64,000 bases of DNA from a virus: positions 186,001 to 250,000 of the IMG/VR virus record IMGVR_UViG_3300032093_000002, one strand, 5' to 3'. The notes under the pieces were generated by a model. The model made no database searches and had not been told where the DNA came from. It saw only the letters and a list, made by a program, of their open reading frames with translations. The position numbers and the translations under genes are program-made. Positions 658-52,073 of this stretch are shown one piece after another (position 1 is the stretch's first letter; the number at the start of each line of letters is the position of its first letter).

Positions 658-942
658 TTAACTACTGGTTTTTGTTTCATCGTATACCTGGTTGACCTTA
701 TCCAATATTTTGAAAAAATTGTTTTTTGTTGAAGACTTGGTCTTTTTTCCACCTTTGAACAAGGAATTGAGTTCTTTGAGTTTATCTATTGAATCCTCAA
801 TTGAATCTTCAACACTCGAGTTACCGTTGTCAGTATTGTAATTTACTGGTTGAACATATATGTCTAAATCCATAGCAGCACTGTTGGAACCAGTCTCAAA
901 TAAACGGTTGTATTGTTCTTTGGTGATGAGTATTTTTTTCAT
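658..942 (-). CDS. Leader-A tagged hypothetical protein, 94 aa
   Basis: ATG at 942 is preferred over the upstream TTG. The N-terminus MKKILITKEQYNRLFE matches leader A, and L-F-E followed by TG would be the predicted prohead-protease cut. The body is acidic and Ser-rich (SSVEDSIEDSIDKLKEL), then a Lys-rich patch GGKKTKSSTKNN. It looks like a small internal or scaffold-like protein. Its body has no recognised homologue. Confidence 0.7.
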   Translation of the reverse strand: MKKILITKEQYNRLFETGSNSAAMDLDIYVQPVNYNTDNGNSSVEDSIEDSIDKLKELNSLFKGGKKTKSSTKNNFFKILDKVNQVYDETKTSS

Positions 943-947
943 CAATA

Positions 948-1313
948 TTAGATGACTCTCAATATTGTGTTAATTACAGTATCTGAATTTAATTCAGACC
1001 AATCAAGAAGTTTTTCTTCTCCGTCCGATGAGACAACGATATGATTAGCATAATCAATATCCCCATATAGTTCAACTCCTGTAACATTTGCTAAATTCAA
1101 ATAAACACCGTCATTAGCTCTGAAGATTACTTTGAAGTCTCCTACAAGGTTTGAGCATTCAACATCTGAAAAAACGTTGAATGATTTGTCTGTTGACACA
1201 TTCAGAATTTCGAGAGTGATGTCTTCAGTTTCACCTGAAGGATTATGGATGAAGTCCTCACCAACTTGCTTGATGAATTTATCTGATTCGTTTCTTGAAA
1301 AAATTGTTGCCAT
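948..1313 (-). CDS. Hypothetical protein, 121 aa
   Basis: An acidic beta-rich protein with no signal peptide or membrane segment; N-terminus MATIFSRNESDKFIKQVGED. A TATTTAT box lies 17 nt before the ATG. It is followed after 5 nt by the leader-A gene at 658-942, with which it may be co-transcribed. No family recognised; alternating hydrophobic residues suggest a beta-sandwich structural protein. Confidence 0.7.
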   Translation of the reverse strand: MATIFSRNESDKFIKQVGEDFIHNPSGETEDITLEILNVSTDKSFNVFSDVECSNLVGDFKVIFRANDGVYLNLANVTGVELYGDIDYANHIVVSSDGEEKLLDWSELNSDTVINTILRVI

Positions 1314-1330
1314 TTTAAAATGTTTTCTTT

Positions 1331-1337
1331 ATAAATA
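1331..1337 (-). promoter_or_regulatory. TATTTAT box of 948-1313
   Basis: 17 nt before the ATG. AT-rich surroundings. Confidence 0.45.
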
Positions 1338-1550
1338 TCATTGTTTTACTTTGGAGTTATTATCCTTGGACTTAGAGTCCATCCATTCGAACCAAAAAGC
1401 CATAAAAACTATGAAATTTAATCCAAATGACATGAATATTTCTATCAAATCATCATATACGTTCATAGTCAAATGAACATGACCTACCATCCAAAAAGGA
1501 ATGGATAGTTTGGATGCAACATATTTTATGAAAAATCTCAGAAAAGCCAT
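1338..1550 (-). CDS. Small membrane protein, 70 aa
   Basis: One or two hydrophobic segments (roughly residues 14-30 and 38-56, including FGLNFIVFMAFWFEW) followed by a charged C-terminal tail SKSKDNNSKVKQ. It lies just upstream of 948-1313 on the same strand and is divergent from the 1587 plus-strand gene. Holin or envelope roles are possible but nothing specific supports either. Confidence 0.55.
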   Translation of the reverse strand: MAFLRFFIKYVASKLSIPFWMVGHVHLTMNVYDDLIEIFMSFGLNFIVFMAFWFEWMDSKSKDNNSKVKQ

Positions 1551-1565
1551 TAATAATAACTATTG

Positions 1566-1572
1566 TATTTAT
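1566..1572 (+). promoter_or_regulatory. TATTTAT box of 1587-2657
   Basis: 14 nt before the ATG; one of few on the plus strand, showing the motif follows gene direction. Confidence 0.6.
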
Positions 1573-1586
1573 TATATAGAATAATC

Positions 1587-2657
1587 ATGCAAAGAACAGA
1601 AATAAAGAAGGTTTTAAGGGAAGCACTCGGGGTTCCTCACAACATTGTTGAGGTGAGTAAAAATGCCTACCAAAGAATCTTGAATTGGGTTAAGAGATTA
1701 GATTCAAAAGATTTTGAATATGGTCAAGGTGTCTCAATGAATTTCAGAGTTGATTATCAAATTGCAGACTTCAGGTTTACAACACTAAAAGTGAAACTCG
1801 GGGTTGATGAGCACCCAAAAATCAAAACACCCGAAATAATGTCTATGGCAATCCGTAGTCAATCAAGAAAAACCGAGGATATGAGACTTGAACCAATCAA
1901 GAATAAAACCGTGGATTTAGTAATCGTGATGTTGGTTCCGACTGATTTCAATTACGAAGAATTACCAGTATATTTTGAAAAAAATAAAAACGAGATTATT
2001 GAAAATCTTTCACACGAGTTCAAACATGCCTACGACCACTTCAAAAAACTTTATGACAACCCCATTCAGAGGGCAGAATATCAATCATCTATAAATTTAG
2101 GTTTCAATTTTGAACCCTTAGATATTTTTGTTCATGATATATATTTTTCCTCCGCAAATGAAAATTTGGTCAGACCTAGTGAAATATCTGCAGCAATACA
2201 AACAGGTCAAATTTCGCAGAAAGACTTCTTAGAGTTTTTGAGAAGTAATGATACCTACAAGAATTTGAAAAGAATTAAAGACTTTAATATTCAGGACTTT
2301 GAAAATAGAATACTGAAAGATGAGAAAGGTCTGAACAAATTACTAAGGAAAGTTGGTGAAAAACCCAAGTTGATGACACCTGAGGAAAAGTTAGAAAGTA
2401 TATACAAACTTCTTTATTCTGTAATTTCCCAAAAGAAAATAATAAGTTTTGCAGAAATGATTAAGACTAATTTTTTAGAGGAACTTTTGGGTTTTCAAGA
2501 TGAAAAAAAGAAAGTTTTTGATAAGTTTGTATCGAGAGTTTCGAGATTCGAAAATCCCAAAGACTTTGTAAAGTATTATGAGAAATTCTTCAATTATATT
2601 GGAGACAAAATGATTCGTAAAATATCCAAACTTTACGCCATCACTCAGAAAAAATAA
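1587..2657 (+). CDS. Leader-F tagged zincin-like protein, 356 aa
   Basis: Start at the ATG 14 nt after a plus-strand TATTTAT box; this gives the leader MQRTEIKKVLREAL, with L-R-E before A as the predicted cleavage site. Residues 143-147 read HEFKH, an HExxH zinc-binding motif preceded by a helix, typical of zincin metallopeptidases; the third ligand is not assignable by eye. The C-terminal 150 residues are Lys/Phe rich and helical. It is isolated in a minus-strand region and overlaps the end of the convergent gene by 17 nt. Function as a peptidase is inferred only from the motif. Confidence 0.75.
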   Translation: MQRTEIKKVLREALGVPHNIVEVSKNAYQRILNWVKRLDSKDFEYGQGVSMNFRVDYQIADFRFTTLKVKLGVDEHPKIKTPEIMSMAIRSQSRKTEDMRLEPIKNKTVDLVIVMLVPTDFNYEELPVYFEKNKNEIIENLSHEFKHAYDHFKKLYDNPIQRAEYQSSINLGFNFEPLDIFVHDIYFSSANENLVRPSEISAAIQTGQISQKDFLEFLRSNDTYKNLKRIKDFNIQDFENRILKDEKGLNKLLRKVGEKPKLMTPEEKLESIYKLLYSVISQKKIISFAEMIKTNFLEELLGFQDEKKKVFDKFVSRVSRFENPKDFVKYYEKFFNYIGDKMIRKISKLYAITQKK

Positions 2658-3127: not shown

Positions 3128-3844
3128 TTAAGTCAAATCAGTTGAAATCTTTTTACTCAATGTTGCATAAATCGGGGATGCAATATTTTTTACTTGATTT
3201 GCAATCTGCCCAACTAACGCCTCATATTTACCACCTGTAGCGTATCTAAGACCCCTCTTGTTTACAAAATTTTTAATCAAATCAGCACCTGAGGTTGTAT
3301 CTGTCAAATAACTTCTTGCAATCAAATCAAAATATGCTTGAATTCCTGATTGAACTGTGTTATGAAAAATGTTTTTACCGCTATTAACGTTCCCTACATT
3401 GAATGGATTTTTTGTTCGGATTGGTCTTGAGGATGGATTTTTATCGAACCCTCCTTCTGCCGCTAATTGAGAAAGTGCCAATTCCACGGGAACGTATCTT
3501 CCGTATTTGGTTTGAGCATTTTTTGCTCCGTCGGCTAACATTGAACCTGTTATTCCCAAAAGGTTGTGTTTCCTTGTTGAAATAAATTTATCTGCAATAC
3601 TTTTATAAGTTTCATATTCTGCAGGATTATTTAAATTCATCACAGGGAATTCACCTGTAGGCACGTTCAAATTTGTTTTGGTGTCTATATTTGATGAAGG
3701 GGAAGATGACGTATCAGTTTGATTTGGTTTTGTTGTCGAGAGAAACGTATCTAAAATCCCTTTACTGTCTTTTGAACCTATCAATGATTTAAGAATCAAG
3801 TCTGTAAGGTCTTGCTCCGATATTAAAAATTTCTTTTTTCCCAT
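3128..3844 (-). CDS. Leader-A tagged glucosaminidase-like lytic protein, 238 aa
   Basis: N-terminus MGKKKFLISEQDLTDLILKS is a leader-A variant. A Ser/Thr/Asn-rich linker (about residues 35-65) is followed by a domain with VELALSQLAAEGGFD and then NPFNVGNV, the pattern of FlgJ/Bax-type endo-beta-N-acetylglucosaminidases (catalytic Glu in the A-A-E-G segment, then the N-x-F-x-x-G core). It would cleave peptidoglycan glycan strands. TATTTAT box 4 nt before the ATG. Family assignment is by motif; the enzyme could instead be a lysozyme-fold relative. Confidence 0.7.
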   Translation of the reverse strand: MGKKKFLISEQDLTDLILKSLIGSKDSKGILDTFLSTTKPNQTDTSSSPSSNIDTKTNLNVPTGEFPVMNLNNPAEYETYKSIADKFISTRKHNLLGITGSMLADGAKNAQTKYGRYVPVELALSQLAAEGGFDKNPSSRPIRTKNPFNVGNVNSGKNIFHNTVQSGIQAYFDLIARSYLTDTTSGADLIKNFVNKRGLRYATGGKYEALVGQIANQVKNIASPIYATLSKKISTDLT

Positions 3845-4773: not shown

Positions 4774-5406
4774 TTACTTCAAAATAGGTTTATAATCTAA
4801 CTCATCAAAGTATTTTTGAAACCTCTGATAAACATCACTAACCATATCCGTTGTAAAAAAATCTTCAATGTTATAATTTTCAATTTTGGTTGGATTTTTC
4901 TTTTTTCTACAAAGCTCTTCTAAAAATCCTGATTTAGCAAATTTACTTTCGGATATAAACGAAATCTTCATGTAGTCGGAAAACAAGTGTTCGAGCCTTA
5001 TAAAGTAATCAGGTTTTCTCTCTGTAAAATCCATTCCCGAAAACCATAAACTTTCTGTATCGTCGATGTTCGTGATATAAAATTTATAAAACTCACTTTT
5101 TGTAATCAATTTTTCTCTTTGTCTATAGGTGTAAAGAAAAGATGAAAAAATTCGATTTAAGGGATTACGAGCAGTACAAATCAATTTATAATTCTGATGA
5201 TTTTCAAAAAGATTTAAATTGTGGTGATGAACAGGAAATTCTGAATAATCGTGATTTATTTTCCTATCGTAATTTGATAAATAAGATACAAAATTCAAAC
5301 AGGAAAAAATTACATTTGCATGGACTGAGCCTGTTTTTGCTGGAGACCAAAAGAAATATCCATGTTCTTCAGAAATGTTAATCCAATATTTTTTATCGTT
5401 TAGCAA
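4774..5406 (-). CDS. Sulfotransferase-like protein, 210 aa
   Basis: N-terminal YFFWSPAKTGSVHANVIF has the P-x-KTGS loop that binds the 5'-phosphosulfate of PAPS in sulfotransferases, and CTARNPLNRIFSSFLYTYR matches the 3'-phosphate-binding segment (R-x-P..R..S). The C-terminal half has YFIRLEHLFSDYMKI, shared with the genes at 36672 and 37292. It would add sulfate to a carbohydrate or similar acceptor. Acceptor unknown; the enzyme assignment is by these two motifs. Confidence 0.75.
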   Translation of the reverse strand: MLNDKKYWINISEEHGYFFWSPAKTGSVHANVIFSCLNFVSYLSNYDRKINHDYSEFPVHHHNLNLFENHQNYKLICTARNPLNRIFSSFLYTYRQREKLITKSEFYKFYITNIDDTESLWFSGMDFTERKPDYFIRLEHLFSDYMKISFISESKFAKSGFLEELCRKKKNPTKIENYNIEDFFTTDMVSDVYQRFQKYFDELDYKPILK

Positions 5407-5778: not shown

Positions 5779-6774
5779 TTATTTTTTCAAATGATTAAAT
5801 TCGTATTCTATAAGGGAAGATTGAGGTAACTCCTTATTATATGTATACCTTGGACCTATGAAAGACCTTAACTGACCATTCAATTTTGTTTTTACGACTT
5901 TCTCCACATCTTGAATTGTTACATCTCCCATTTCCCCTTTAAGATAATTTTTTGTGGTCTTCTGACCTTTTCCACCAACCAAATCCAATACATCGTATAT
6001 GTCAACAATTACTTTTAACTTATCGGATGAATCATCAATTGAATTGATTTTGAATTTTGCGATAAAAGGGGTATTTTGCATTTCTTCATCCCACGCCCAC
6101 GAATATTGTTTGGCTGAGGACATTCTTTTATTCTGAAATTCTGATTCCTTAGATTTGAGTGATTTTTTTTTGTTTCGAATAATATCATCATGGGTCCCAT
6201 CTCTTTGCAACGTTTTCATTTCTTCTTTTGTAAGTAAAAAAACTTTTCCATCCAAATTTTCATTCCATGCAACTGGATTCGAATTACTCATTTGTCTACC
6301 TGTTGAAGACGAATAATGTTCAGCAACCTCATACCATCTATCATTTTTGTAAATATAAATCGGATACCACCCATATGATTTTACAATATAATAAGGAGTT
6401 CTGTTGTCATCGAAAGACCAAAAACCCTCAAGATTCGTACCTTTGAAGGGGAGTTGGGCTATGGTATATGAATTGGCTTTTGTGTTTGAAGTCCACTTTC
6501 CTTTCATTTTTCTTGGGTCAACAAAATTTTCTTTCGTAAGATTTTTATAATCGCCGTCTTTTCTGTAATTAAGAAGATAAAGTTCGAGGAGGTATAATTC
6601 ATGTCCTTCCGGTAGACCCATGTATTGAGAAACATTTTTGATTACATCCAAAAGTTTAGCACGTGTCTTGTGTTTTTTCTTTTCCTCGTTGAGAAACTTA
6701 AATAATTTTATAACTTTTGGTTCGAGAACTTTATCAAATTGTTCAAAAAGTCTATTTGAAATTTTATACTTCAT
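5779..6774 (-). CDS. Leader-A tagged hypothetical protein, 331 aa
   Basis: N-terminus MKYKISNRLFEQFDKVLE followed by P is a leader-A variant with L-E/V-L-E as possible cleavage residues. TATTTAT box 5 nt before the ATG. The middle has a Trp/Tyr-rich segment (YGWYPIYIYKNDRWYEVAEH) that looks like a beta structure, followed by a Lys-rich helical region. No enzyme motif seen. Possibly a cargo or internal virion protein. Confidence 0.75.
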   Translation of the reverse strand: MKYKISNRLFEQFDKVLEPKVIKLFKFLNEEKKKHKTRAKLLDVIKNVSQYMGLPEGHELYLLELYLLNYRKDGDYKNLTKENFVDPRKMKGKWTSNTKANSYTIAQLPFKGTNLEGFWSFDDNRTPYYIVKSYGWYPIYIYKNDRWYEVAEHYSSSTGRQMSNSNPVAWNENLDGKVFLLTKEEMKTLQRDGTHDDIIRNKKKSLKSKESEFQNKRMSSAKQYSWAWDEEMQNTPFIAKFKINSIDDSSDKLKVIVDIYDVLDLVGGKGQKTTKNYLKGEMGDVTIQDVEKVVKTKLNGQLRSFIGPRYTYNKELPQSSLIEYEFNHLKK

Positions 6775-6838: not shown

Positions 6839-7291
6839 TTAATTCGGAAACTTACAGTTGAATGTTTCACCAACCTTAATTGCCAATTCTTTAGAATATA
6901 GCTTAGTTTTTTCGTAATCGAAGGAAGAATCTTTTTTTAAAATTCTATTACAATCGGTATAAACTTTGAAAGAACCCAAATCAAGTTCAATGAGTTTGTT
7001 TGTAGTTTGAACGGCACTTCTTACCGGATAATTACCTGCGAATTTTTTTTCATCTGTATCATAAAAAAATTTAATATTAACAGGTTCTAATTTAGGTTGT
7101 GACGGTGAGGATGTGGTGGATTGAGTTGCCGTAGTTGCAGATGAACCACCCAACTTTATTTGTTGACCATATTCATATCTTGGGCTAGTTGTGGATTGTG
7201 TTGTTGATTTGATTTGGTCACCATATGTTGTGGTTGTTCCTTGTTCGGAAATCAATTTTTTATATTGTGCCTCAGTAATTATGTATTTCAT
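6839..7291 (-). CDS. Leader-A tagged protein with Ser/Thr-rich linker, 150 aa
   Basis: MKYIITEAQYKKLISE followed by Q is a near-perfect leader A with predicted cleavage after I-S-E. Residues ~18-75 are a low-complexity Thr/Ser/Gln linker containing two YGxQIK repeats. A compact C-terminal domain (KFFYDTDEKKFAGNYPV) follows, with Cys at two positions. It lies 4 nt downstream of the gene at 7296 and may be co-transcribed with it. Confidence 0.75.
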   Translation of the reverse strand: MKYIITEAQYKKLISEQGTTTTYGDQIKSTTQSTTSPRYEYGQQIKLGGSSATTATQSTTSSPSQPKLEPVNIKFFYDTDEKKFAGNYPVRSAVQTTNKLIELDLGSFKVYTDCNRILKKDSSFDYEKTKLYSKELAIKVGETFNCKFPN

Positions 7292-7295
7292 ATTT

Positions 7296-8162
7296 TTAGT
7301 ATTCTACTCTAATTTTTTTATAACCTGAATCATTCAACAACTTGGTGACTTGTTGTTTGAAATCACTTTTACTGGCATTCCAAGGTGCTGTTGATTTGAA
7401 CACAATTTTCAAACTACTCATAGTTTCTTTAGGTTCAAACTTCATCGAGTGAACATATTTACCGTAAGGAAGTGAACGAATTTTTGTTTTAATTTCTTTA
7501 TTCAGAACGGTTTTGACCCAAGAATCCAAGTTTTTGTATTCTGTTCCCAATCTATCAATATCTAAATGACCATGGTTTGGATTTCCGAATTCCACACCCA
7601 AAAAACTCTCGGCAAATTTTGTAAACTCTCTCTCGAGGTTGCTAGGATAAACACTTCGAGTCTCTTCACTTTTAACCATTTCAGGAAAATCTAAGACCAC
7701 TTTGAAGTTAACTTTATAAGGAGAATTTTCTATTAATTCGATGTTTGCCCATGGAGGTAGATTCAATTCATCAATGAAATACTTGATGGGTCTTTTGAAT
7801 CTTTCGGTAAATTTTTCATATTTTCTTTTCGATGGTAATTTGTATAAACCCTTTTTTACGATTGATTGAACAATACGAGGTATACTCCATCTACTTATTT
7901 CAAAATTGTCATTGGAAAACATGGGGTCATCACCAATTAGTTCTTGGATAAATTTCTTTCCATATTTTTCTAATAGATATGATATTGGTGCATCTTTTTC
8001 TGAGTCAGGAAGATTTGTGTTTACCCAATTTCTGAACATTATGAAAAGAGCATCATAATAATCTAAATCGTCCACATAATTGAAATCGACGGTATTGTTT
8101 TCTTCCATAATTGAATGAATCAAAGATACAAGTTCTGACTCAGATAACCTTAACTTCTTCAT
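7296..8162 (-). CDS. Leader-A tagged hypothetical protein, 288 aa
   Basis: MKKLRLSESELVSLIHSIMEE is intermediate between leaders A and B, with I-M-E as a candidate cut. TATTTAT box 5 nt upstream. The body is mixed alpha/beta with basic patches and ends in TKLLNDSGYKKIRVEY. The two halves each carry a predicted (V/I)xFKxxxxFPE-like strand, so an internal duplication is possible. No enzymatic motif recognised. Confidence 0.75.
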   Translation of the reverse strand: MKKLRLSESELVSLIHSIMEENNTVDFNYVDDLDYYDALFIMFRNWVNTNLPDSEKDAPISYLLEKYGKKFIQELIGDDPMFSNDNFEISRWSIPRIVQSIVKKGLYKLPSKRKYEKFTERFKRPIKYFIDELNLPPWANIELIENSPYKVNFKVVLDFPEMVKSEETRSVYPSNLEREFTKFAESFLGVEFGNPNHGHLDIDRLGTEYKNLDSWVKTVLNKEIKTKIRSLPYGKYVHSMKFEPKETMSSLKIVFKSTAPWNASKSDFKQQVTKLLNDSGYKKIRVEY

Positions 8163-8878: not shown

Positions 8879-9211
8879 TTAAAAAGTAACGCTTTCTGCA
8901 TCTTGTTTAAATTCATCATTAAACCAATCGATAATGAATGTCATTCCCTCACTTCCGAAATAATCCTCCAACGTTATAAATAAATCTTGGTCCAATACCA
9001 ATTCTTTTTTCCAAACATAATAACGGGCAAAAGTTTCAGGTTGACCATTGTGATATGATTTTTTGTCCTTGTTATAATATCTGATGTATGTATCATCCCC
9101 ATCACTATAGGTGGCAACCTTAGCATTTTCGTCACTAAAATTTGGTCTAACTAAATTAATCATAGTTTTAATTAGTCTTACCAATCTATCTTTTGATATT
9201 GTATAATCCAT
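8879..9211 (-). CDS. Leader-A variant small protein of the WF family, 110 aa
   Basis: MDYTISKDRLVRLIKTMINL is a leader-A variant without a clear (L/I)xE cut. The C-terminus GMTFIIDWFNDEFKQDAESV carries the (I/V)xxWFxxxF motif shared with 9211, 32152, 50693 and 51003. It overlaps the upstream gene's stop by 1 nt. These look like diverged paralogues of one small structural or cargo family. Confidence 0.75.
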   Translation of the reverse strand: MDYTISKDRLVRLIKTMINLVRPNFSDENAKVATYSDGDDTYIRYYNKDKKSYHNGQPETFARYYVWKKELVLDQDLFITLEDYFGSEGMTFIIDWFNDEFKQDAESVTF

Positions 9212-9585
9212 TAAAAATCAATTTTTTTTACAGGTAATTCGAATCTTTCTTTGAACCATATCTTGAATGGTGCTCTCCAAGTATCTCCGAAATATCCATC
9301 TAGTATCCTTTCATATTGGGTTTCAAGTGAAACTGTTGGACATATGTCACGTGCATTACTTCCTTGTGTGAAATACTCACAGAAATAATATCTAAAACAT
9401 ATGTCATCACCCGCATCAAAATCACCTCGATAATATTCTATTAAAGTATCAGATTCAAATTCTTCACCCGTCTCATCATCATATTCATACGGATGATGCC
9501 AATTGATGTCCTCGAGTGGAAACAATTCATCTAAGTAATTGATGATTGTTTGTTTGAGTCTTGATTCAGAAATAGTGTATTTCAT
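9211..9585 (-). CDS. Leader-A variant small protein of the WF family, 124 aa
   Basis: MKYTISESRLKQTIINYLDE begins as leader A and is preceded by a TATTTAT box at 5 nt. The middle is acidic (YEYDDETGEEFESD). The C-terminus APFKIWFKERFELPVKKIDF shows the WF motif in its clearest form. It heads the 8176-9585 gene run. Confidence 0.8.
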   Translation of the reverse strand: MKYTISESRLKQTIINYLDELFPLEDINWHHPYEYDDETGEEFESDTLIEYYRGDFDAGDDICFRYYFCEYFTQGSNARDICPTVSLETQYERILDGYFGDTWRAPFKIWFKERFELPVKKIDF

Positions 9586-9660: not shown

Positions 9661-10017
9661 TTAATTATATTGACCTCTTTCATCCCACATATTCAAACAC
9701 TCATAACCTTGTTCCTCAAAATTGTTTTCAGTGTCTATTAAGTTCACATTCTTTAATTCATCAAATGAACATAAATCAATACCATCAAAATCAGCGAAAT
9801 CACAATCCCTCAGGGATAAGTATGTCAAAGTGCTTGGTAAGTTTGTTAATATTTTTCTAACTTGTTTTGAACTTGCACCCACCATCAAAACAAGCCCATT
9901 TTTTTTATCGAACTGATAATGTGGCTCATCTAATCTATACTCATCTTGTTCTTTAATTACCTTTTTTACTAATCTTATCATGTCAGATTCTGTTAATCTT
10001 ACTATTTTCTTCGACAT
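9661..10017 (-). CDS. Leader-B tagged leucine-rich-repeat-like protein, 118 aa
   Basis: MSKKIVRLTESDMIRLVKKV followed by I-K-E and Q is leader B with a textbook I-x-E cut site at residue 23. The body has LPSTLTYLSLRDCDFADFDG and FDELKNVNLIDTEN, spaced like two to three leucine-rich repeats, which would serve protein binding. TATTTAT box 15 nt upstream and its own terminator downstream make it a single-gene unit. Confidence 0.8.
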   Translation of the reverse strand: MSKKIVRLTESDMIRLVKKVIKEQDEYRLDEPHYQFDKKNGLVLMVGASSKQVRKILTNLPSTLTYLSLRDCDFADFDGIDLCSFDELKNVNLIDTENNFEEQGYECLNMWDERGQYN

Positions 10018-10779: not shown

Positions 10780-11130
10780 TTAATTGTAGTCCTCTTCTGG
10801 ACAGGTCATACGATAAATTTCGAATAGATATTCACCAAACCAATCTTTAACAACATCAGTAACATAACTATAAACATCATCATAATCATCCCCTAAGGAA
10901 TCGACAAAATCTTCATCTTTGGTCAGGAAATCATCTATCGCTATTCTAATTACATTATCTGCATAATCGAACTCATCTCCGAAATCATCACACAATGTTG
11001 GAAAATCTAATTCTGCATTACGAATGAAGGGTTCGATATTATCTTTAGATAATCGTCTCCTTAATCTTATTTGATAGTCTTCGATTAAAAAATTGTATTG
11101 GGTTTCGGATATGATAAATTTTTTGGACAT
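10780..11130 (-). CDS. Leader-A tagged acidic protein, 116 aa
   Basis: MSKKFIISETQYNFLIE followed by DY is a leader that merges the leader B start with the leader A core; L-I-E is a possible cut. The rest is very acidic (many DD and DDYDD runs) and ends with VVKDWFGEYLFEIYRM, echoing the WF motif. TATTTAT box 5 nt upstream. Possibly a DNA-mimic-like or internal acidic protein; that is speculation from composition. Confidence 0.75.
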   Translation of the reverse strand: MSKKFIISETQYNFLIEDYQIRLRRRLSKDNIEPFIRNAELDFPTLCDDFGDEFDYADNVIRIAIDDFLTKDEDFVDSLGDDYDDVYSYVTDVVKDWFGEYLFEIYRMTCPEEDYN

Positions 11131-12019: not shown

Positions 12020-12484
12020 TTAATTACATGAATTCATAAAATCTTTAGCCTGTGAAATCAAAGATTTTACTTTGACAGAATAAGTGCCAGCCTTACATTG
12101 TGGTTTAGGACAATAAACTCTATCTAATAATTTATAATAATCTTCCTCACCACCTATACTTTCAATTTTTCTAAAATCCTGCCATAACTTGTAATCTTCA
12201 ACAGATTGTTTCCAATTGTCATATCTTGCGTGACCCCTATATTCACCAGTAGCCGTCTTCGGTCTAATTTTGGCGTATTTCATACCAAAACAATTATTAT
12301 TGGCTTTGAATATTTCACTTTCGAAATGACCTGTTTCTAATATTGCTTGGGCAATTGCTATTTCAGGAAACCTGATTCCTGAATTCTTCACATAACATGC
12401 AAATTCTGATGGAGAAAAGTTCTCCACTTCTGAATCAACACCCATGATTTCTTTAATTCTTGTTATGTCCTCGTAAAGATTCAT
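12020..12484 (-). CDS. Leader-C tagged glucosaminidase, 154 aa
   Basis: MNLYEDITRIKEIMGVDSE is leader C with D-S-E at its end. The body has the FlgJ/LytD glucosaminidase signature: FPEIAIAQAILETGHFES (catalytic Glu), NNCFGMKY, then YDNWKQSVEDYKLWQDF. It would hydrolyse the glycan strands of peptidoglycan. Length fits a bare catalytic domain with no binding modules. TATTTAT box 4 nt before the ATG. A tagged muralytic enzyme is consistent with delivery at cell entry. Confidence 0.85.
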   Translation of the reverse strand: MNLYEDITRIKEIMGVDSEVENFSPSEFACYVKNSGIRFPEIAIAQAILETGHFESEIFKANNNCFGMKYAKIRPKTATGEYRGHARYDNWKQSVEDYKLWQDFRKIESIGGEEDYYKLLDRVYCPKPQCKAGTYSVKVKSLISQAKDFMNSCN

Positions 12485-12876: not shown

Positions 12877-13284
12877 TTAAAATCTTTTTTTTGTTCGAAG
12901 TTTTATTGGACCATCTTTTTGATATCTGTTCCAATAATCTCTTCCTGGTTTAGAAACATCCGAACCAATCCTGTCTTCTTGTCCGAAACTCCATTTATTT
13001 CTCGGTACATCCCTTTGGGTAATGTTCTTATACATTTCAAAGTCATCTGGTCCAAACTCAATTTCTTCATCATAATCAAATTCTTCAGGGTCAACAGGTC
13101 TATCGTCTTCATCAAACCAACTGTCTCTGTGACCTAAAATACCCCTGTTTTCAGGTTTCATTTTCATGAAGTGTCTTTTAGGCATTTCAGTTCCCATATC
13201 CAACGAATCAAGTTCATGTTCTTTTAAAACTCTTTTAACCAATCTTATCAAATCAGATTCGGTCAATCTTACTATTTTTGACAT
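12877..13284 (-). CDS. Leader-B tagged charged protein, 135 aa
   Basis: The ATG at 13284, 15 nt after a TATTTAT box, gives a complete leader B ending V-L-K-E before HELD. The body is disordered-looking: very acidic (FDEDDRPVDPEEFDYDEEIE) then basic (RTKKRF). Upstream in-frame ATGs lie before the box and are rejected. A strong terminator follows. No function assigned. Confidence 0.8.
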   Translation of the reverse strand: MSKIVRLTESDLIRLVKRVLKEHELDSLDMGTEMPKRHFMKMKPENRGILGHRDSWFDEDDRPVDPEEFDYDEEIEFGPDDFEMYKNITQRDVPRNKWSFGQEDRIGSDVSKPGRDYWNRYQKDGPIKLRTKKRF

Positions 13285-40379: not shown

Positions 40380-40997
40380 TTAAAATATCTCTCCTATGAG
40401 AACTTGTGGTTTGATTCCCATCGCAGCTGCAGTGCAAAGTCTTGTGTTACCAGCAACTAAATGGAATCTGTCACCAAATTTGAGTATTAGTGGTCTTTTG
40501 TAGTCACCACTTTGAAGGGCTTTTTTCAACTCTCGTGGGTCTTGTTTGTTATACTTTTTTGCAAGAGCCATTACTTTTTTCATCTCACCTTTTTTGATTT
40601 GATTACATTCCGTATTTTCAAGATTGTTCCAAACCTCGTCGGGTATTTTAACTTCGATGGCGTTGTCTAATGCACGATAAACATCTTCGACAGATATATC
40701 GATATTTTCGTCTCTATTCAAATCTTGAACTACTCTTTCTATTTCGTCCATTTCTGACTTCAAGTATCTTTTCCTTCTCTCCATAAAATAGTTGACCTCA
40801 TTTCTTAGGTCATCAAAATCTGAAATGCCAGCATCATAGACGTAATCTTCTAAGTCTTTGAATTTGTTAAATTTCAAATGTTTGAGGAGCTCAGGATGTT
40901 TTTTCACGTCATCAAGAAATTCCTGAACACCTGAAGAATCAGGTGATAACTCATTTATGAGTCTTTTAATTCTTAATATTTGTTCACGTAAAATCAC
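40380..40997 (-). CDS. Leader-F tagged ParB/Srx-like protein, 205 aa
   Basis: MILREQILRIKRLINELSPD is a leader-F start with I-N-E. C-terminal PLILKFGDRFHLVAGNTRLC then TAAAMG shows the ParB-like strand, G-N-T-R and helix. Third ParB-like gene in the window after 18694 and 19274. It overlaps the HExxH gene at 40994 by 4 nt. Confidence 0.7.
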   Translation of the reverse strand: MILREQILRIKRLINELSPDSSGVQEFLDDVKKHPELLKHLKFNKFKDLEDYVYDAGISDFDDLRNEVNYFMERRKRYLKSEMDEIERVVQDLNRDENIDISVEDVYRALDNAIEVKIPDEVWNNLENTECNQIKKGEMKKVMALAKKYNKQDPRELKKALQSGDYKRPLILKFGDRFHLVAGNTRLCTAAAMGIKPQVLIGEIF

Positions 40998-46242: not shown

Positions 46243-46914
46243 TTACGGTTTTATGTATACCTTGGTGCCTGAAGGAATTGAGTTCAACATCCATTGAATT
46301 GCATTGTTTGAAACTCTAATACAACCGTTGGAACGAGGAGTTCCTAAGTTTTTCTCTTTGTTTGTTCCGTGGAAATATATGTTCCTTGAAAATGCGTTTT
46401 TGTTACATGGCTCTAACCCATCGAGTTCCAAAATACCTGTGAGAACCTCAGCCACGTGTCTTTGTCCCTTCTCATCCACTCTCATCGAGTCTTTGTCAGG
46501 ACCCAAAATTTTACCTGTTGGAGTTTTAGCCACAATCACCTCATATGGTTTTGCCTCAACTTTTCCTTTTACTTGTAACAAACCTGTTGGTGTTTCCTTA
46601 TTATCAGGACGATTGTTAAAACCATTCGCACCAGTTGATACAATAACAGTTTTGATTGCGGTTTTACCGTCTTGTGTGTAATACATTCTTTGTTCAGGTC
46701 CCCAAACTATCAGAAGTTTTTCTCCCTGTTTTATCATTCCCTTTTCAACCAATTCAGAATAAAGTTCTTTCCAATCTTCAGCTTCAATTATTTCAGGACT
46801 ACAATCGGTAACCTTTGGTTTCTCTTCTTCATCATCAAACCAAGTGCTCGGTTTATACCAAGCCTTTTGTTCTTGTAACTTCGCCAACTGTGATTTGGTT
46901 ATGATATACTTCAT
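46243..46914 (-). CDS. Leader-A tagged L,D-transpeptidase, 223 aa
   Basis: MKYIITKSQLAKLQE followed by QK is leader A with L-Q-E cut; TATTTAT box 4 nt upstream. The YkuD domain spans about residues 95-223 and ends YFHGTNKEKNLGTPRSNGCI: His182, Cys198 in the S-N-G-C-I-R motif. Such enzymes crosslink or remodel peptidoglycan in the periplasm. It is the clearest of two tagged L,D-transpeptidases in the window. Confidence 0.9.
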   Translation of the reverse strand: MKYIITKSQLAKLQEQKAWYKPSTWFDDEEEKPKVTDCSPEIIEAEDWKELYSELVEKGMIKQGEKLLIVWGPEQRMYYTQDGKTAIKTVIVSTGANGFNNRPDNKETPTGLLQVKGKVEAKPYEVIVAKTPTGKILGPDKDSMRVDEKGQRHVAEVLTGILELDGLEPCNKNAFSRNIYFHGTNKEKNLGTPRSNGCIRVSNNAIQWMLNSIPSGTKVYIKP

Positions 46915-47742: not shown

Positions 47743-48063
47743 TTAAACTTTTCTTCTGTGTGGTTTACCATGATGTCTTTGACATTTGGAACACACAGGT
47801 TGTGGTTTATGTTGAGCCATTCTAATTCTTTGAGCCGCTCTCATTTGTTGCATTCTTTTGAATTGTTCTTCAGACATTGTTATAATGACTTTACCGTCTT
47901 TCTTTTCAATCTGAGGTCTTTCCATTTCCCATCTTTGTCGATGGTCTATAAAGTCTCTAAATTGATTAGGAAGAGGTCTTTGGCCTTGTGGTCTCATAGG
48001 CGGTTGAGCTGCTAGTGTAAGTGTGGCAAATACACCGAGCAGAATTAATGTGATTTTTTTCAT
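47743..48063 (-). CDS. Exported Met/Gln/Arg-rich protein, 106 aa
   Basis: Signal peptide KKITLILLGVFATLTLAAQP with cut expected before Q. Mature part is Pro/Arg rich with KVIITMSEEQFKRMQQMRAA, and ends with CSKCQRHHGKPHRRKV, a possible metal-binding C-x-x-C..H-H. Not tagged, so it acts in the periplasm of the infected cell. Overlaps 48060 by 4 nt. Confidence 0.75.
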   Translation of the reverse strand: MKKITLILLGVFATLTLAAQPPMRPQGQRPLPNQFRDFIDHRQRWEMERPQIEKKDGKVIITMSEEQFKRMQQMRAAQRIRMAQHKPQPVCSKCQRHHGKPHRRKV

Positions 48064-49625
48064 GTTATTGCTTTAAATTTTTCTGTACTTAAATAAGTAT
48101 TTTCCCAATAAGGTGGATTAATTTTTTTTGGACTTACTTTTTTCAAAAACTCACCATTGATATCATAAACGTTTACTTTGTCTGATGGCGTCCCTAATGA
48201 GAAATCAGCCTCGAAAATATACATGTTTCCATCTTTCGATTTGACCACGTCAGTCCAAAGACCACTTCGGTAACCCCCTCGAAAACTACCTTGGGAGCGA
48301 ATAGCTCCATTTGGAAAATAATAAGTCCATTTACCTAAGTAAGACTTAGTAGCTCCGATTTTACCCATGGCTTCAACTTTTCCTGTTCTTCCGAAAAAAA
48401 TAGTTTTACCATATGGGTAAGAATCCCGTTCGTCTCTCATGTTGGAAACATATCTAATTTTACCTGTACCAGTATAGCCCGTTTGAGTCATATCTGAATA
48501 ATTCATATTCTTATAAACTCCGTCCCAATCACCCATCATCCATATACCTATTCGTTTTCCGTTATTATTATATGTGCCTTTTCTGTAAATTTTTCCGTTT
48601 TTGAAATTCTCTTCATATTCACCTACTAAACCTCCACTTAAAGTGGTTCCCTTTTTCTCAATTTTTCCGTCGGAATAGTATTGAACAAAAGGCCCTTCTT
48701 CTTCACCATTTTTATAAGTCTTAATTCCCGCAAGTTGTCCTCCACCGTAAAAGTATTTCCACACACCCTGCTTTCTACCATTGTCGTCTTCGAAACCTTT
48801 ATCTTTAACGGGGATTTCAAATTGGCTTGGAAAATTTTCAGCTTCGATACTATATTTTGGAACCCTATCACCAACAAATTTGAAAAAATCTATTTGTTTT
48901 ATCTTATGCGTTTCATAGTCATTTTTGTCCATAAACTGACCTGACTCATGATGTAATTGATAAGGAGACCTCCTATCATCCAAATTAAAAAGTAAAAAAT
49001 AACTTGAACCCTTTGGGTCAGTCAGATAATTTTTGAAGTAACTATATTGACCTATGGTACATATATCAATTTTAGCACCTTTGTCTCTTCCTTTGCATCT
49101 TCCTAGAATGTCTCTATATAACTTCCAAACATCTTTGTTTACACCAAAAACTTCGAATACCTGATACTTGTAGTCGCCATTGTCATATATCCCCAAGTAT
49201 TTTATTCCACCTGAGGATTCCAACTTCTCGATATCATTTTGTGAAACAAAGTTATCTTTACCCTGTATTTCATCATAGACAATATTTCCTTCTCTAAGTT
49301 TAACAATCTCTTGCAAAAATTTCTTAACATCTTCGGCGGTCCTATACAGGTGAATGTCCTTGTATTCAAACTTTTTCTTATTTTTCTCGTATAGGTCGAA
49401 GTATTCTTTATACTTGTATACATCCTCGGCTTTGATAATACCAGTTCCCACCTTCTTTGTGAGCCAACTCAATAAATAAAATTTGTTACCCGTAACTTCA
49501 ACTATTTTATTGAAGTCATCTTCTGAAATGGGCTTTCCCTCACCTACATATTTGTTTTTGAGATTGAGAACATTTTGGTCAACTTGTTCTTTTAATACTT
49601 TCCAAATGAGGGAGCGTAGTTCCAT
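48060..49625 (-). CDS. Leader-F tagged MORN-repeat protein, 521 aa
   Basis: MELRSLIWKVLKE followed by QV is leader F with L-K-E cut; TATTTAT box 5 nt upstream. From about residue 280 onward, repeats such as GVWKYFYGGGQLAGIKTYKN then GEEEGPFVQYYSDGKIEKKG resemble MORN/MORN_2 beta hairpins, which bind membranes or proteins. N-terminal 280 residues are helical and unique. Largest tagged protein in the window. Confidence 0.75.
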   Translation of the reverse strand: MELRSLIWKVLKEQVDQNVLNLKNKYVGEGKPISEDDFNKIVEVTGNKFYLLSWLTKKVGTGIIKAEDVYKYKEYFDLYEKNKKKFEYKDIHLYRTAEDVKKFLQEIVKLREGNIVYDEIQGKDNFVSQNDIEKLESSGGIKYLGIYDNGDYKYQVFEVFGVNKDVWKLYRDILGRCKGRDKGAKIDICTIGQYSYFKNYLTDPKGSSYFLLFNLDDRRSPYQLHHESGQFMDKNDYETHKIKQIDFFKFVGDRVPKYSIEAENFPSQFEIPVKDKGFEDDNGRKQGVWKYFYGGGQLAGIKTYKNGEEEGPFVQYYSDGKIEKKGTTLSGGLVGEYEENFKNGKIYRKGTYNNNGKRIGIWMMGDWDGVYKNMNYSDMTQTGYTGTGKIRYVSNMRDERDSYPYGKTIFFGRTGKVEAMGKIGATKSYLGKWTYYFPNGAIRSQGSFRGGYRSGLWTDVVKSKDGNMYIFEADFSLGTPSDKVNVYDINGEFLKKVSPKKINPPYWENTYLSTEKFKAIT

Positions 49626-50285: not shown

Positions 50286-50292
50286 ATAAATA
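50286..50292 (-). promoter_or_regulatory. TATTTAT box of 49818-50264
   Basis: 21 nt before the ATG; a second box-like hit at 50349 lies before the terminator. Confidence 0.45.
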
Positions 50293-50293
50293 A

Positions 50294-50332
50294 AAAACCC
50301 ATCTTCACCTACAACTAAGTTGAGATGGGATG
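50294..50332 (-). terminator. Intrinsic terminator after 50379-52073 run
   Basis: ACCCATCT..AGATGGGAT stem with longer loop. Confidence 0.65.
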
Positions 50333-50378
50333 GGATTTATATTCTCTTATAAATATCTTTGAAAATCCGAAAATCGTC

Positions 50379-50696
50379 TTACATGAACCTTTTGACCCTG
50401 TAACCCATGTTACCCAAGTAATCCTTGAAAACCTCTTTTGTTCCTGTTTTGGATAGGTTAAACATGATTTTTACGAGTTCGAAAAGTTGGTCAGTAACGA
50501 ATAAAATTTGGTCACCTTTCTCATATGCCATCTTGTTTTCCTTACCTTTTCCGAACAAGACTAGGTTGTTAGTTTCCTCAGGAGAATAGTCCTCAAGGTA
50601 ACTGTCAAGAAATAAAAAAATCTTGTCATTTATTTTAGATTCTCCAACAATTCCAAGGAACTTGTTTAATCTATTTTCTGTGATGATGTATTTCAT
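50379..50696 (-). CDS. Leader-A tagged small protein, 105 aa
   Basis: MKYIITENRLNKFLGIVGES is leader A; followed by a WF-family-like end (LFELVKIMFNLSKTGTKEVF). It overlaps 50693 by 4 nt. First in a four-gene run of related tagged proteins (50379-51648). Confidence 0.78.
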   Translation of the reverse strand: MKYIITENRLNKFLGIVGESKINDKIFLFLDSYLEDYSPEETNNLVLFGKGKENKMAYEKGDQILFVTDQLFELVKIMFNLSKTGTKEVFKDYLGNMGYRVKRFM

Positions 50697-51001
50697 GGCT
50701 CTACGAATTCCACCTTAACATTGAATTTATTTTCGAACCATAGTTTAATTAAGAGTTTCATTTTTTCTTCACTCAAAGCAAACATATCGGTCATATTTTT
50801 TTGGAAGTGGCGGTTAACCCATAATCTTCCATCTGTGTGGTCAAATTCCATAATGTCCTCCCAATCGTCTTCACCATCCCCAATTTGGTGAGATACTACA
50901 ATATAAGGATGAAGTCGGTTAACAACCTTCCTTTCAATCAAATTGTTAAGGTAGTCGATAATAAACTGATTCAACCTATTTTCAGAAATAATGTATTTCA
51001 T
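50693..51001 (-). CDS. Leader-A tagged WF-family protein, 102 aa
   Basis: Start at MKYIISENRLNQFIIDYLNN; earlier in-frame ATGs lie in the previous gene. C-terminus MKLLIKLWFENKFNVKVEFV is a clean (I/V)xxWFxxxF. It lies 2 nt from the tagged gene at 51003. Confidence 0.78.
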   Translation of the reverse strand: MKYIISENRLNQFIIDYLNNLIERKVVNRLHPYIVVSHQIGDGEDDWEDIMEFDHTDGRLWVNRHFQKNMTDMFALSEEKMKLLIKLWFENKFNVKVEFVEP

Positions 51002-51002
51002 A

Positions 51003-51356
51003 TTACTCGTCTTCATTTTGGTCTTCTTCATGCATCCACTCAAAATTATCCATTGTGAGGGATTTATCATATCTCTCATTGAACCAATTTATTATGGTTT
51101 TGATGGCGTCGAGATTAGGAATTGAAAAAAGTTTAGTTAATTGAGTAACTAATCCATCACTAAGGTAAATCACTTCAAACTCTCTGTGTGGATGCATACT
51201 TGAATATTGAATTCTGTAAAGAATTTTGCTTGTATTATACTGTCCGTCTGCAAGATTAAACTCACCATCACCAATATCCCACTCCCACCAATCGATTGAA
51301 TCAAGATAAGATAATATCAAATTTTTTAACCTATTTTCTGTTATTACGTACTTCAT
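51003..51356 (-). CDS. Leader-A tagged WF-family protein, 117 aa
   Basis: MKYVITENRLKNLILSYLDS then acidic Trp-rich IDWWEWDIGDGEFNLADG. C-terminal AIKTIINWFNERYDKSLTMD has the WF motif. Overlaps 51331 by 26 nt. Paralogue of the neighbours. Confidence 0.78.
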   Translation of the reverse strand: MKYVITENRLKNLILSYLDSIDWWEWDIGDGEFNLADGQYNTSKILYRIQYSSMHPHREFEVIYLSDGLVTQLTKLFSIPNLDAIKTIINWFNERYDKSLTMDNFEWMHEEDQNEDE

Positions 51357-51648
51357 GGTTAATATTTCTTATTGTTGCGGTGGCTGAATGAACGGGAACT
51401 CCAACCATATCCTCAACGAACTGTGCAAGTTGGTGTTTAAAAAAATGAAAATCAGGACCCATAGTTCTTTCGGTAACATAAAATATTGGATGAAGAATAT
51501 AATAGGTTCCACCCATCATTGCTTTACCTTCTTCAATCGCAACCTCAGTTTTCATAACAGAGTTGTTTGTGAAAGTCTCAGCAACCTGTTTGATAATTTC
51601 TTTTATCCTATCGTTTTGTTGTTCTGTAATAATATATCTTTTCATCAT
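51331..51648 (-). CDS. Leader-A tagged small protein, 105 aa
   Basis: MMKRYIITEQQNDRIKEIIK is leader A. Body beta-rich (GGTYYILHPIFYVTERTMGP), ending VHSATATIRNINHEVRNNRK. Overlaps both neighbours by a few nt. Part of the 50379-52073 tag run. Confidence 0.75.
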   Translation of the reverse strand: MMKRYIITEQQNDRIKEIIKQVAETFTNNSVMKTEVAIEEGKAMMGGTYYILHPIFYVTERTMGPDFHFFKHQLAQFVEDMVGVPVHSATATIRNINHEVRNNRK

Positions 51649-52073
51649 ACTTTTGTCCAGGTCATTTCAAAAACCTCATATTCGAGTGGTGTTCCATAAT
51701 AGGCAATATCCAAATTGAAATAAGATTTGAGGTCCTTATATACTTCCCTCTTGGCAAGTAAAGACCAATTCCTATCCTTCTTTTGTTTGCTGAAGTCAAA
51801 GTAAAATTTGATGTTTGGTCTTTGAATGGAGAAACCTTCATTTCCATAATGAGTTCCTTTCTCCCCAATCTCAATCTTCACCAACTCATCCCCAAACTTA
51901 ACTTTAAAAAATTCTATAATCTTTGGAAGTATACGTTCGATACGAACTTTGTAGTCCTTAATAAATTGAATTCTCTCCTCTTTTGAAAGTTCATGAAACT
52001 TCTCCACCCAATCAGGTGTGTCTGATGTCAAAACAATTGCCTCCCTTAATATTTTTTTGATGAGTTCTCTCAT
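51645..52073 (-). CDS. Leader-F-like hypothetical protein, 142 aa
   Basis: MRELIKKILREAIVLTSDTP resembles leader F (I-L-R-E before A); TATTTAT box 4 nt upstream. Body helical then beta (FEVKFGDELVKIEIGEKG-like KVKFGDELVKIEIGEK). Heads the run that continues to 50379. No domain recognised. Confidence 0.7.
   Translation of the reverse strand: MRELIKKILREAIVLTSDTPDWVEKFHELSKEERIQFIKDYKVRIERILPKIIEFFKVKFGDELVKIEIGEKGTHYGNEGFSIQRPNIKFYFDFSKQKKDRNWSLLAKREVYKDLKSYFNLDIAYYGTPLEYEVFEMTWTKV

Follow-up and report, generated by a model that had tools for sequence, protein, structure and literature searches.

Introduction

Contractile injection systems use an N-terminal leader to load diverse cargo into a phage-like particle. 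In phage T4, the capsid-targeting sequence (CTS) at the N-terminus of certain head proteins is removed by gp21 after L/I-X-E, as established experimentally (PMC9026906, PMC5694885), and up to 19 proteins are processed in phage 201phi2-1 (PMC9026906).

Here we describe short N-terminal leaders carried by a much larger set of proteins. The window, i.e., the whole stretch of 64,000 nucleotides that was analysed, corresponds to positions 186,001-250,000 of the 317-kb record IMGVR_UViG_3300032093_000002, and genes were called on the whole record. The source is a T4-type jumbo phage of 317 kb, which probably infects Bacteroidota bacteria.

The tagged genes

The window contains 38 tagged genes, spanning 658-942 to 51645-52073, and about 22 more lie outside it, giving about 60 genome-wide (classes A-F); from 180 to 240 kb of the record, successive 20-kb bins hold 18, 16 and 9 of them. 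Among 360 N-termini, 70 pairs had an ungapped BLOSUM62 score of at least 50, against 3-5 for the control, internal windows of the same proteins, and the N-terminal likeness is not due to chance. The same method recovered the known IPII/IPIII targeting sequence in T4, the positive control, and found no leader-type N-terminal clusters in the negative controls crAss001 and phi14:2.

The members in the window other than the small class-A proteins are listed below; a slash marks the candidate cleavage junction.

658-942, minus strand: 94 aa, leader A, MKKILITKEQYNRLFE/T
1587-2657, plus strand: 356 aa, leader E, MQRTEIKKVLRE/A; G005 orthologue, MKILKESELRLSIKKVLLE/R
3128-3844, minus strand: 238 aa, A/B-type leader, MGKKKFLISEQDLTDLILKSL, its end without a clear cleavage motif
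5779-6774, minus strand: 331 aa, leader A, MKYKISNRLFE/Q
6839-7291, minus strand: 150 aa, leader A, MKYIITEAQYKKLISE/Q
7296-8162, minus strand: 288 aa, leader B, MKKLRLSESELVSLIHSIMEE/N; G005 orthologue, MAKILTLQESQLINMVKTIVE/Q
9661-10017, minus strand: 118 aa, leader B, ...LVKKVIKE/Q
10780-11130, minus strand: 116 aa, leader A, MSKKFIISETQYNFLIE/D
12020-12484, minus strand: glucosaminidase (PF01832, 7.7e-14), leader C, MNLYEDITRIKEIMGVDSE
12877-13284, minus strand: 135 aa, leader B, ...LVKRVLKE/H
13367-13762, minus strand: 131 aa, leader B, ...IVKKVLQE/Q
15940-16965, minus strand: 341 aa, leader C, MNLNENISRVKELMGGAISNNLDE/Q
17009-18001, minus strand: 330 aa (weak YkuD match, E 0.015), leader A, MKYLITESQYNFLLE/Q
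18042-18656, minus strand: 204 aa, leader A, MKYIITERQLKLISE/Q
18694-19233, minus strand: 179 aa, leader C, ...MGIIVE/T
19274-19834, minus strand: 186 aa, leader C, ...MGLVSE/E
19862-20758, minus strand: P-loop protein, 298 aa (Walker A GTSSAGKS; weak CPT match), leader C, ...MGLLVE/Q
22945-23595, minus strand: 216 aa, leader A, MKYIITESQLKTIMME/Q
23673-24146, minus strand: 157 aa, leader F, MKHILNNISEEEKNAIRE/Q
24231-24737, minus strand: 168 aa, leader D, ...LEKRLLKE/D
24839-25138, minus strand: 99 aa, leader B, ...LVNKIVKE/Q
25229-25669, minus strand: 146 aa, leader B, ...LVNKVIKE/Q
25780-26295, minus strand: 171 aa, leader B, ...LVKRVIKE/Q
26399-26695, minus strand: 98 aa, leader D, ...LEKRLLKE/Q
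27103-27486, minus strand: 127 aa, leader B, ...LAKRVIQE/Q
33373-34047, minus strand: C39-type peptidase (PF13529, 1.2e-18), leader MKIRLTEEKLVQIITEIVE/Q
34058-35395, minus strand: 445 aa, leader C, ...LMGEAVE/D, then a PG_binding_1-like module
40380-40997, minus strand: 205 aa, GTG start, C-like leader, MILREQILRIKRLINE/L
46243-46914, minus strand: L,D-transpeptidase/carboxypeptidase (PF03734, 9.8e-21), leader A, MKYIITKSQLAKLQE/Q
48060-49625, minus strand: MORN-repeat protein, 521 aa, leader E, MELRSLIWKVLKE/Q
51645-52073, minus strand: 142 aa, leader E, MRELIKKILRE/A

The bodies of the class A-D proteins are unrelated by blastp (40 body families among 42 proteins), so that, as expected of a CTS, a short N-terminal peptide is common to otherwise different proteins. 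In relatives, the body encoded at 3128-3844 also forms one domain of a 541-aa protein that has no tag, and their homologues of the glucosaminidase bear Sec-like or TM N-termini in place of the leader.

The preliminary description had counted about 38 leader-bearing proteins, with many of the leaders ending in (L/I/V)-x-E then Q, and both points are borne out by the gene calls and by the motif frequencies given below. A short class E (MRELIKKILRE/A type) and class F (NISEEEK..IREQ) are best kept apart from the other leader classes. Among the bodies that it had named, the cell-wall enzymes, the C39-type protein and the P-loop protein were recovered, and the "zincin-like" and "membrane-inserting" ones were not confirmed.

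Sequence properties of the leaders

The motif [LIVMF]xE falls within residues 11-30 in 38/42 class A-D proteins, compared with 36% both for N-termini of untagged proteins and for internal segments, and its extended form [LIVMF]xEQ in 45% of class A-D proteins versus 2.7% and 2.1%, respectively. The peptide thus ends in L/I-x-E, with the exception of a few small class-A members; in the protein at 3128-3844, [LIVMF]xE occurs at residue 10 only. The small class-A proteins, about seven in number, form a distinct and probably fast-evolving group:

8879-9211, minus strand: 110 aa, MDYTISKDRLVRLIKTMINL, without cleavage motif
9211-9585, minus strand: 124 aa, MKYTISESRLKQTIINYLDE/L
32152-32535, plus strand: 127 aa, MRYIITQTQLHSLIYRYLNE/M
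50379-50696, minus strand: 105 aa, MKYIITENRLNKFLGIVGE/S
50693-51001, minus strand: 102 aa, MKYIISENRLNQFIIDYLNNLIE/R
51003-51356, minus strand: 117 aa, MKYVITENRLKNLILSYLDSIDWW, without cleavage motif
51331-51648, minus strand: 105 aa, MMKRYIITEQQNDRIKE/I or VAE/T

About four of them lack a clear cleavage site, and two have no [LIVMF]xE anywhere in their first 34 residues. That 4/42 class A-D proteins, small class-A members among them, lack the motif at residues 11-30 counts against a capsid-targeting role.

At least five leader families occur in this one genome. The residue after the Glu (P1') is mostly Gln, whereas T4 sites and the capsid protein have Ala; the core-protein site discussed below also reads E/Q. 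The prevalence of Gln over the Ala of T4 sites is a second observation that speaks against capsid targeting, and a third is that hydrophobic-x-Glu is frequent in amphipathic helices generally. On inspection of T4 N-termini, classes A-D have no sequence similarity to MKTYQEFIAE, only the form of the motif being common to both, and homology of the peptide itself is therefore less likely, homology of the mechanism being unaffected. A class C pattern search returned only five stretches, and a tblastn search of cultured phages found nothing when leader B was the only query, this peptide being too short.

Prohead protease, capsid and core protein

The genome encodes a complete T4-type head cassette: a gp21-type prohead protease (Peptidase_S77, PF03420, E 1.5e-22), the capsid protein gp23, the gp20 portal and the gp17 terminase. 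In gp23, the N-terminal T4-style site LINE/A is kept in 78/78 relatives read. The gp22-like prohead core protein, assigned by position and composition and having no Pfam match, carries the site ..VKESL[SNT]E/Q, which is kept in 46/46 relatives.

When a leader B profile was scanned over the 92,155 15-mers of the whole proteome, its best matches, leader-bearing N-termini aside, were this core protein (residues 35-49) and the head-cassette protein 97465. Such similarity is not a general rule, since gp22 does not stand out when the T4 proteome is scanned with the CTS.

Orthologues and exchange of leaders

The gene of one tagged protein, G000:96560, adjoins the capsid gene. Among 35 orthologues, P1 is Glu in 35/35 and P3 is L, I or M, P2 varies freely over ten residues (2.7 bits), and the linker after the Glu is hypervariable. 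A Glu that never changes, preceded by a hydrophobic position and flanked by such freedom at P2 and in the linker, is the signature of a protease site. In the AlphaFold model of this family, the leader is a separate, less certain helix (residues 9-26), followed by a confident helical body (30-92) and a poor C-terminus. Environmental class-B proteins (n=96, in 47 body families) have Glu at the same position in 93/96 cases, and the search pattern had ended five residues upstream of it.

In addition, one and the same body is found behind different leaders. The PG-binding module of the protein at 34058-35395 and two others sits behind A, C and E leaders; the protein 182084 has leader E here and leader B on its G005 counterpart; and PPK2 bears leader C here, as do most of 53 distinct PPK2 sequences, 38 of which match the strict motif, whereas in LR756502 it has another leader, MINNFIKFINE/E.

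Proposed mechanism

We think it fairly likely that the leaders are capsid-targeting sequences of the T4 type whose clients, about four in T4, have multiplied massively to about 60. The leader, a short amphipathic helix, would bind the prohead core late in infection, probably next to the conserved N-terminal helix of the gp22-like protein that resembles leader B. The shell would then close around core and cargo, the S77 protease would cleave after hydrophobic-x-Glu in capsid protein, core and leaders alike, and the freed bodies could leave the head with the DNA at the next infection. The sequences themselves establish the leaders, the selection acting on them, their modularity and the statistics of the cleavage motif, along with the protease and the cassette of head genes, whereas packaging, cleavage, core docking, ejection and the functions of individual bodies are what we infer; since the tags end in the cut site of the phage's own head protease, the enzymes are probably packed in the particle, which would probably hold a large enzyme set, far more than in any phage known to do so.

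The preliminary description had proposed capsid loading, with a prohead protease expected in the rest of the genome; this protease is present in the cassette described above. The proposal is supported in part: it gains from this protease, the conserved Glu with free P2, the exchange of leaders, the likeness to the core protein, the association with S77 in other contigs and the T4 control, and loses where members lack the motif. Literature searches agree with its statement that no such system with this many members is described for a Bacteroidota phage, and the phenomenon itself extends beyond Bacteroidota.

Alternative explanations

An unlikely alternative is that the leaders are uncleaved docking peptides for another part of the virion (tail tube lumen, baseplate, outer shell or whiskers), as in contractile injection systems. 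Its precedent is Pectobacterium phage CBB, another S77 phage, in which the N-terminal tag MLPFxRxxEYGN occurs on at least 10 different proteins, seven of which (CBB_536, 537, 548, 549, 551, 552 and 553, in a cluster at 344-355 kb) were found in virions by mass spectrometry (PMC5259590). The CBB tag is probably an outer docking tag, and the lectin-like and Kelch bodies of its virion proteins, suggestive of decoration on the outside, count against the capsid-targeting reading. The invariant Glu, free P2 and hypervariable linker seen here are, however, signatures of a protease site, leader B resembles the core protein, and the tagged bodies are enzymes, not domains for binding or decoration.

Somewhat less probable still, the leaders might direct proteins to a place in the infected cell other than the virion (membrane, lysis complex or replication compartment) or to a phage-encoded partner. 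Tagged genes are indeed very numerous, and the bodies include cell-wall enzymes without Sec signals, such as the glucosaminidase, whose homologues have Sec-like N-termini. Against this, the leaders are not hydrophobic: the maximum 11-residue hydropathy in the first 30 residues of classes A-D is 1.35, below the cut of 2.3 for a Sec-like N-terminus, and Sec signals do exist on other proteins of the phage. Such an address would also leave the core-protein similarity, the conserved Glu and the link to S77 unexplained.

It is improbable that the common N-termini have no targeting function and are left over from gene duplication, or from recombination at homologous 5' ends, or mark diverged whole-length paralogues, as in the MRWxQLTE cluster of Atu_ph07 and perhaps among the small class-A proteins, which may be one diverged family. 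The 40 body families speak against this, as does the retention of the same leader across orthologues despite variable linkers. Moreover, class B leaders have pS 0.62 and pN 0.26, and class C leaders 0.69 and 0.16; they are not recent DNA copies and are kept as peptides with synonymous sites near saturation.

Trimming of double-glycine-type leaders by the phage C39 peptidase (33373-34047), suggested by the place of its gene in the cluster and by the amphipathic helices, is very improbable, given that the leaders end in hydrophobic-x-Glu and not in a Gly-Gly or Gly-Ala cleavage site (GG near the leader end in only 2/60 N-termini) and that the C39 protein is itself tagged. Sec signals, double-glycine leaders and recent duplication were accordingly rejected on hydropathy, GG count and pS, respectively.

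Other phages and contigs

S77 was found in 23/30 leader-bearing contigs versus 2/24 random contigs, the two sets being unmatched in contig size. Rhodothermus phage RM378 has S77 and no leader-type clusters, and Microcystis phage Mel-JY01 has S77 and mostly paralogous clusters, so a genome with S77 need not have a leader set. No leader-type clusters were seen in the G003 and G004 fragments. The Atu_ph07 MRWxQLTE cluster was rejected as a leader set, its members being whole-length paralogues; its region (CDS 31-76, numbering inferred from accession order) is rich in MS-detected proteins (PMC6102473).

In LR756502.1, a 642-kb uncultured phage, 86 proteins in the first 381 kb bear another such leader, about 19% of the genes examined; this is a large share for cargo and counts against capsid targeting. 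In the related Flavobacterium phage immuto, leader G is also found on a gene between portal and protease, and a head-cassette protein carries HFIAEA.

A further reading, to which we give somewhat less than even chances, is an open-ended address-tag system in large T4-type phages, in which any body with an interchangeable leader, some leaders imitating the prohead core protein, would be loaded into the head and trimmed. Dozens of pre-made proteins per genome (about 60 in this phage and, for LR756502.1, 86 within its first 381 kb), including polyphosphate kinase and cell-wall enzymes, would then act at the moment of infection. In this reading, the prevalent Glu/Gln junction may also leave a mature N-terminal Gln, matching the Bacteroidota pyroglutamate rule if the bodies are released into the periplasm. 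If capsid targeting is true, an N-terminal tag reveals packaged and delivered jumbo-phage proteins from sequence alone, so far the province of proteomics only; the number of proteins that a phage head is known to deliver rises from a handful to dozens; a ready-made tag family becomes available for loading proteins into capsids; and the widespread environmental N-termini MKYIITESQ, LTESDLxRIVKRV and MKHLKxYKIFE become a testable class.

Comparison with known systems

The leaders resemble the T4 CTS (IPI, IPII, IPIII, Alt) in being short N-terminal peptides on unrelated bodies with an L/I-x-E end, in a phage with an S77-family protease, a core of gp22 type, a gp23 shell and a gp20 portal; in T4, the bodies evolve fast and are injected. 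The leaders differ in number (about 60 clients versus about four), in having several families and in P1', and among the candidate cargo bodies here are cell-wall enzymes, PPK2 and a C39 peptidase. The phages phiKZ, 201phi2-1 and SPN3US likewise cut many head or ejection proteins after Glu with a gp21-like protease; however, they belong to a different lineage, the motif is S/A-x-E, and their propeptides are mostly long and not common to unrelated bodies. Contractile injection systems hold cargo in the tube lumen and not the head, with the leader uncut. The CBB tag is similar in that an S77-bearing jumbo phage has it at the N-terminus of different proteins, of which seven are virion-confirmed, and dissimilar in having no conserved Glu and in its Kelch and laminin-G-like bodies. 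Immuto and LR756502.1 have their own leader families with hydrophobic-x-Glu ends on unrelated bodies, enzymes of HAD and PPK2 type among them, together with S77, and differ in leader sequence and in a P1' of Ser, Asn or Ala instead of Gln.

Genome Context of the Leaders

Gene calling over the entire virus record (317,210 bases, of which the window covers bases 186,001-250,000) gave 372 genes. The prohead protease that the preliminary description looked to elsewhere in the genome is present, in a head cassette at 97.4-115.8 kb, outside the window.

Components of the head cassette
gp23-type capsid protein, PF07068, 4.2e-71
Peptidase_S77 (S77) prohead protease, 1e-21
T4-type portal, 3.5e-76
T4-type terminase, 3.4e-13
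acidic protein of 525 residues, at the gp22 (core/scaffold) position

Among cultured phages, Microcystis phage Mel-JY01 and Flavobacterium phage immuto have the closest capsid proteins (~42% identity over 55%). Most Sec-like N-termini of the phage have A/S/G as the last residue and Gln next, i.e., they follow the Bacteroidetes Q-rule (PMC5837995, PMC10653852), and for this reason the host is probably a bacteroidote.

Leader Classes

Tagged genes number about 60 genome-wide and 38 in the window, the latter counted from gene calls and matching the earlier estimate.

Leader classes (x, any residue)
A: MKYIITExQ..
B: KIVRLTESDLxRLVKKVIKEQ
C: MNLNENISRVKELMG
D: MNRSYSKIRHIQE
E: short, M(x)LIKKxLxE
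F: NISEEEKNAIREQ

The best explanation is that the leaders are capsid-targeting peptides of the T4 type: they would dock on the prohead core and be cleaved off by S77, and the tagged proteins would be packaged in the head and then ejected. The strongest rival is that they are docking tags that stay uncleaved: phage CBB shows that virion proteins can be marked by a common N-terminal tag, 7/8 of one cluster having been found by published mass spectrometry. The CBB proteins look like outer decorations, and their tag like an outer docking tag. This tag, MLPFxRxxEYGN, occurs on ten different proteins of the Pectobacterium phage (L178, 343.5-355.5 kb), seven of which are confirmed virion components.

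An unbiased comparison of N-terminal 28-mers gave 70 pairs with a score >=50, versus 3-5 for internal segments, and the 42 proteins of classes A-D have 40 body families. Because synonymous differences are near saturation while the amino acids are kept (pS 0.62 and pN 0.26 for leader B; 0.69 and 0.16 for leader C), selection acts on the leader peptide itself, and recent copying of DNA does not account for the leaders. Small proteins of about 105-127 aa with MKYIITExR N-termini, mostly without the EQ site (window 8879-9585, 32152-32535, and 50379-51648), probably form a separate, fast-evolving family.

A Putative Cleavage Site

T4 gp21 cleaves after L/I-X-E (PMC9026906). Within residues 11-30, [LIVMF]xE is found in 38/42 class A-D proteins versus 36% each for untagged N-termini and internal segments, membership being set by N-terminal similarity and not by the motif, although the Glu lies inside the compared stretch. 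The motif followed by Gln occurs in 45%, versus 2.7% and 2.1%, respectively. A stricter check used a search pattern ending five residues ahead of the Glu; among the 96 class-B proteins considered, which are environmental and fall in 47 body families, this residue was in place in 93/96 and P3 was hydrophobic in 96/96.

For the tagged protein 96560, whose gene adjoins the capsid gene, 35/35 orthologues have Glu at P1, P3 is L/I/M, and P2 is any of ten residues, followed by a linker differing in length and sequence and then a strongly conserved body. This pattern has the appearance of a protease site, and a conserved Glu with a free P2 favors the head interior over an uncleaved tag. Gln at P1', also exposed by the phage's Sec signal peptides, occupies nearly half of class A-D sites and is absent from immuto leaders; it may hint that the mature N-termini of the cargo are destined for the periplasm.

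Exchange of Leaders and Bodies

Within one genome, a PG-binding-like module stands behind leaders A (51544), E (182084), and C (220058), and protein 182084 carries leader B in contig G005. The glucosaminidase at window 12020 has leader C here and Sec-like or TM N-termini in relatives; protein 115855 has a leader here and none in relatives. PPK2 (1.4e-70) bears leader C in this phage, as it does in most of the 53 distinct sequences from the environment (strict motif in 38/53, several others having apparently truncated starts), but MINNFIKFINE/E (slash, proposed cut) in LR756502, a 642-kb uncultured phage. Since leaders swap on one body and bodies behind one leader, the sequences argue that different leaders share one job. 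PPK2 with leader C lies at G000:161848-162954 of the whole record, outside the window, and at L537-L616; this viral polyphosphate kinase 2 is a candidate for packaging in the head, as an energy or nucleotide enzyme.

Confident body assignments concern a minority of tagged proteins: C39 peptidase (1.2e-18), YkuD L,D-transpeptidase/carboxypeptidase (9.8e-21), glucosaminidase (7.7e-14), PPK2, PG-binding, and MORN repeats. A ParB-like PHROG is matched by 1/38 window proteins (1.2e-5). Environmental class-B proteins add LysM and endolysin matches. Cell-wall enzymes could plausibly be carried pre-made and released at entry, and so could a polyphosphate kinase; enzyme-type bodies again favor the head interior over outer docking.

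At least six small proteins share a W.P.KTGS/RTGT motif near the N-terminus and are possibly sulfotransferase-like P-loop proteins.

Proteins with the W.P.KTGS/RTGT motif
window 4774-5406
window 36672-37289
window 37292-37876
G000:135559
G000:185489
G000:127821

Links to the Head

HLINE/A occurs at about residue 60 of the capsid protein and is kept in 78/78 relatives read; FLTE/A of T4 gp23 is at the equivalent place. The conserved starting segment of the core protein ends in VKESL[SNT]E/Q in 46/46 relatives examined, and a variable acidic region follows. When the leader B profile was scanned across all 92,155 15-mers of the proteome, the top scores were leader-bearing N-termini (one, 98990, included through an alternative start), and the next two were the core segment KEEINQLVKESLSEQ and NESLRGLIKRVLKEE in protein 97465, whose gene is near the capsid gene. 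Head-cassette proteins hold ~6% of residues, so both would fall there by chance about 1 in 250 times, by a post hoc estimate. This likeness to the core protein also speaks for the interior and against the uncleaved tag. The head-cassette protein 97465 (G000:97465-98358) has FINE/A at its extreme N-terminus and the leader-like segment at residue 223, which suggests two processing sites. Leader G of immuto (MKKSxLxxIIKEEL) begins scattered proteins; a gene lying between those of the portal and the protease also encodes a protein with it, of 73 residues.

Occurrence in Other Phages

As a positive control, the N-terminal comparison recovered MKTYQEFIAE/A of T4 IPII/IPIII. Immuto has separate leader sets of its own, 20/122 genes of the fragment G005 are leader-bearing, and LR756502 has a cluster of 86 MKHLKxYKIFE/S proteins in its first 381 kb (by simple pattern 83, with 57 body families and Glu within residues 8-15 in 78); its S77 match is sub-threshold only (E 1.8e-5). 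Clustered proteins of LR756502.1 (L631-L650, L536) start MKHLKxYKIFE/S or MKHLKKYNE/S, and 25 of the 86 are related small proteins whose leader ends at the same Glu.

S77 was found in 23/30 leader-bearing contigs >100 kb versus 2/24 random contigs, which are smaller, and in 12/13 leader-bearing contigs >195 kb. The same N-terminal comparison gave no leader clusters in crAss001 and phi14:2, where S77 was not detected, and no comparable set in RM378 and Mel-JY01, where S77 is present; the leader system is thus an elaboration and not obligatory in S77 phages.

HAD-type phosphatases in three distant phages have leader-like N-termini.

HAD-type phosphatases
G000:46125-46955, MRKEITE/G..
LR756502.1:113187-114269, MDILRFDQFIRE/S..
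immuto 109856-110455, MGNLADLLLEE/S..

Comparison with Known Systems

Agrobacterium phage Atu_ph07 (L678, 41.8-50.6 kb) encodes about nine paralogous proteins in tandem, all starting MRWxQLTE/, in a region with many virion-protein products; by eye they look ADP-ribosyltransferase-like (YRGM..SxFxTG..YG) and reminiscent of the tagged T4 Alt. T4 internal proteins are diverse injected defence proteins with only the capsid-targeting sequence in common (PMC3012670). The leaders described here resemble that family in genome features and motif form and differ in leader sequence, and packaging here is predicted only. In the literature found, counts of processed head proteins reach at most 19 (201phi2-1). 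A T4-type mechanism, if confirmed, is already known in kind; what is new, as far as literature searches show, is the scale, the cargo, the presence of several leader families together, and the way in which the core protein is apparently imitated.
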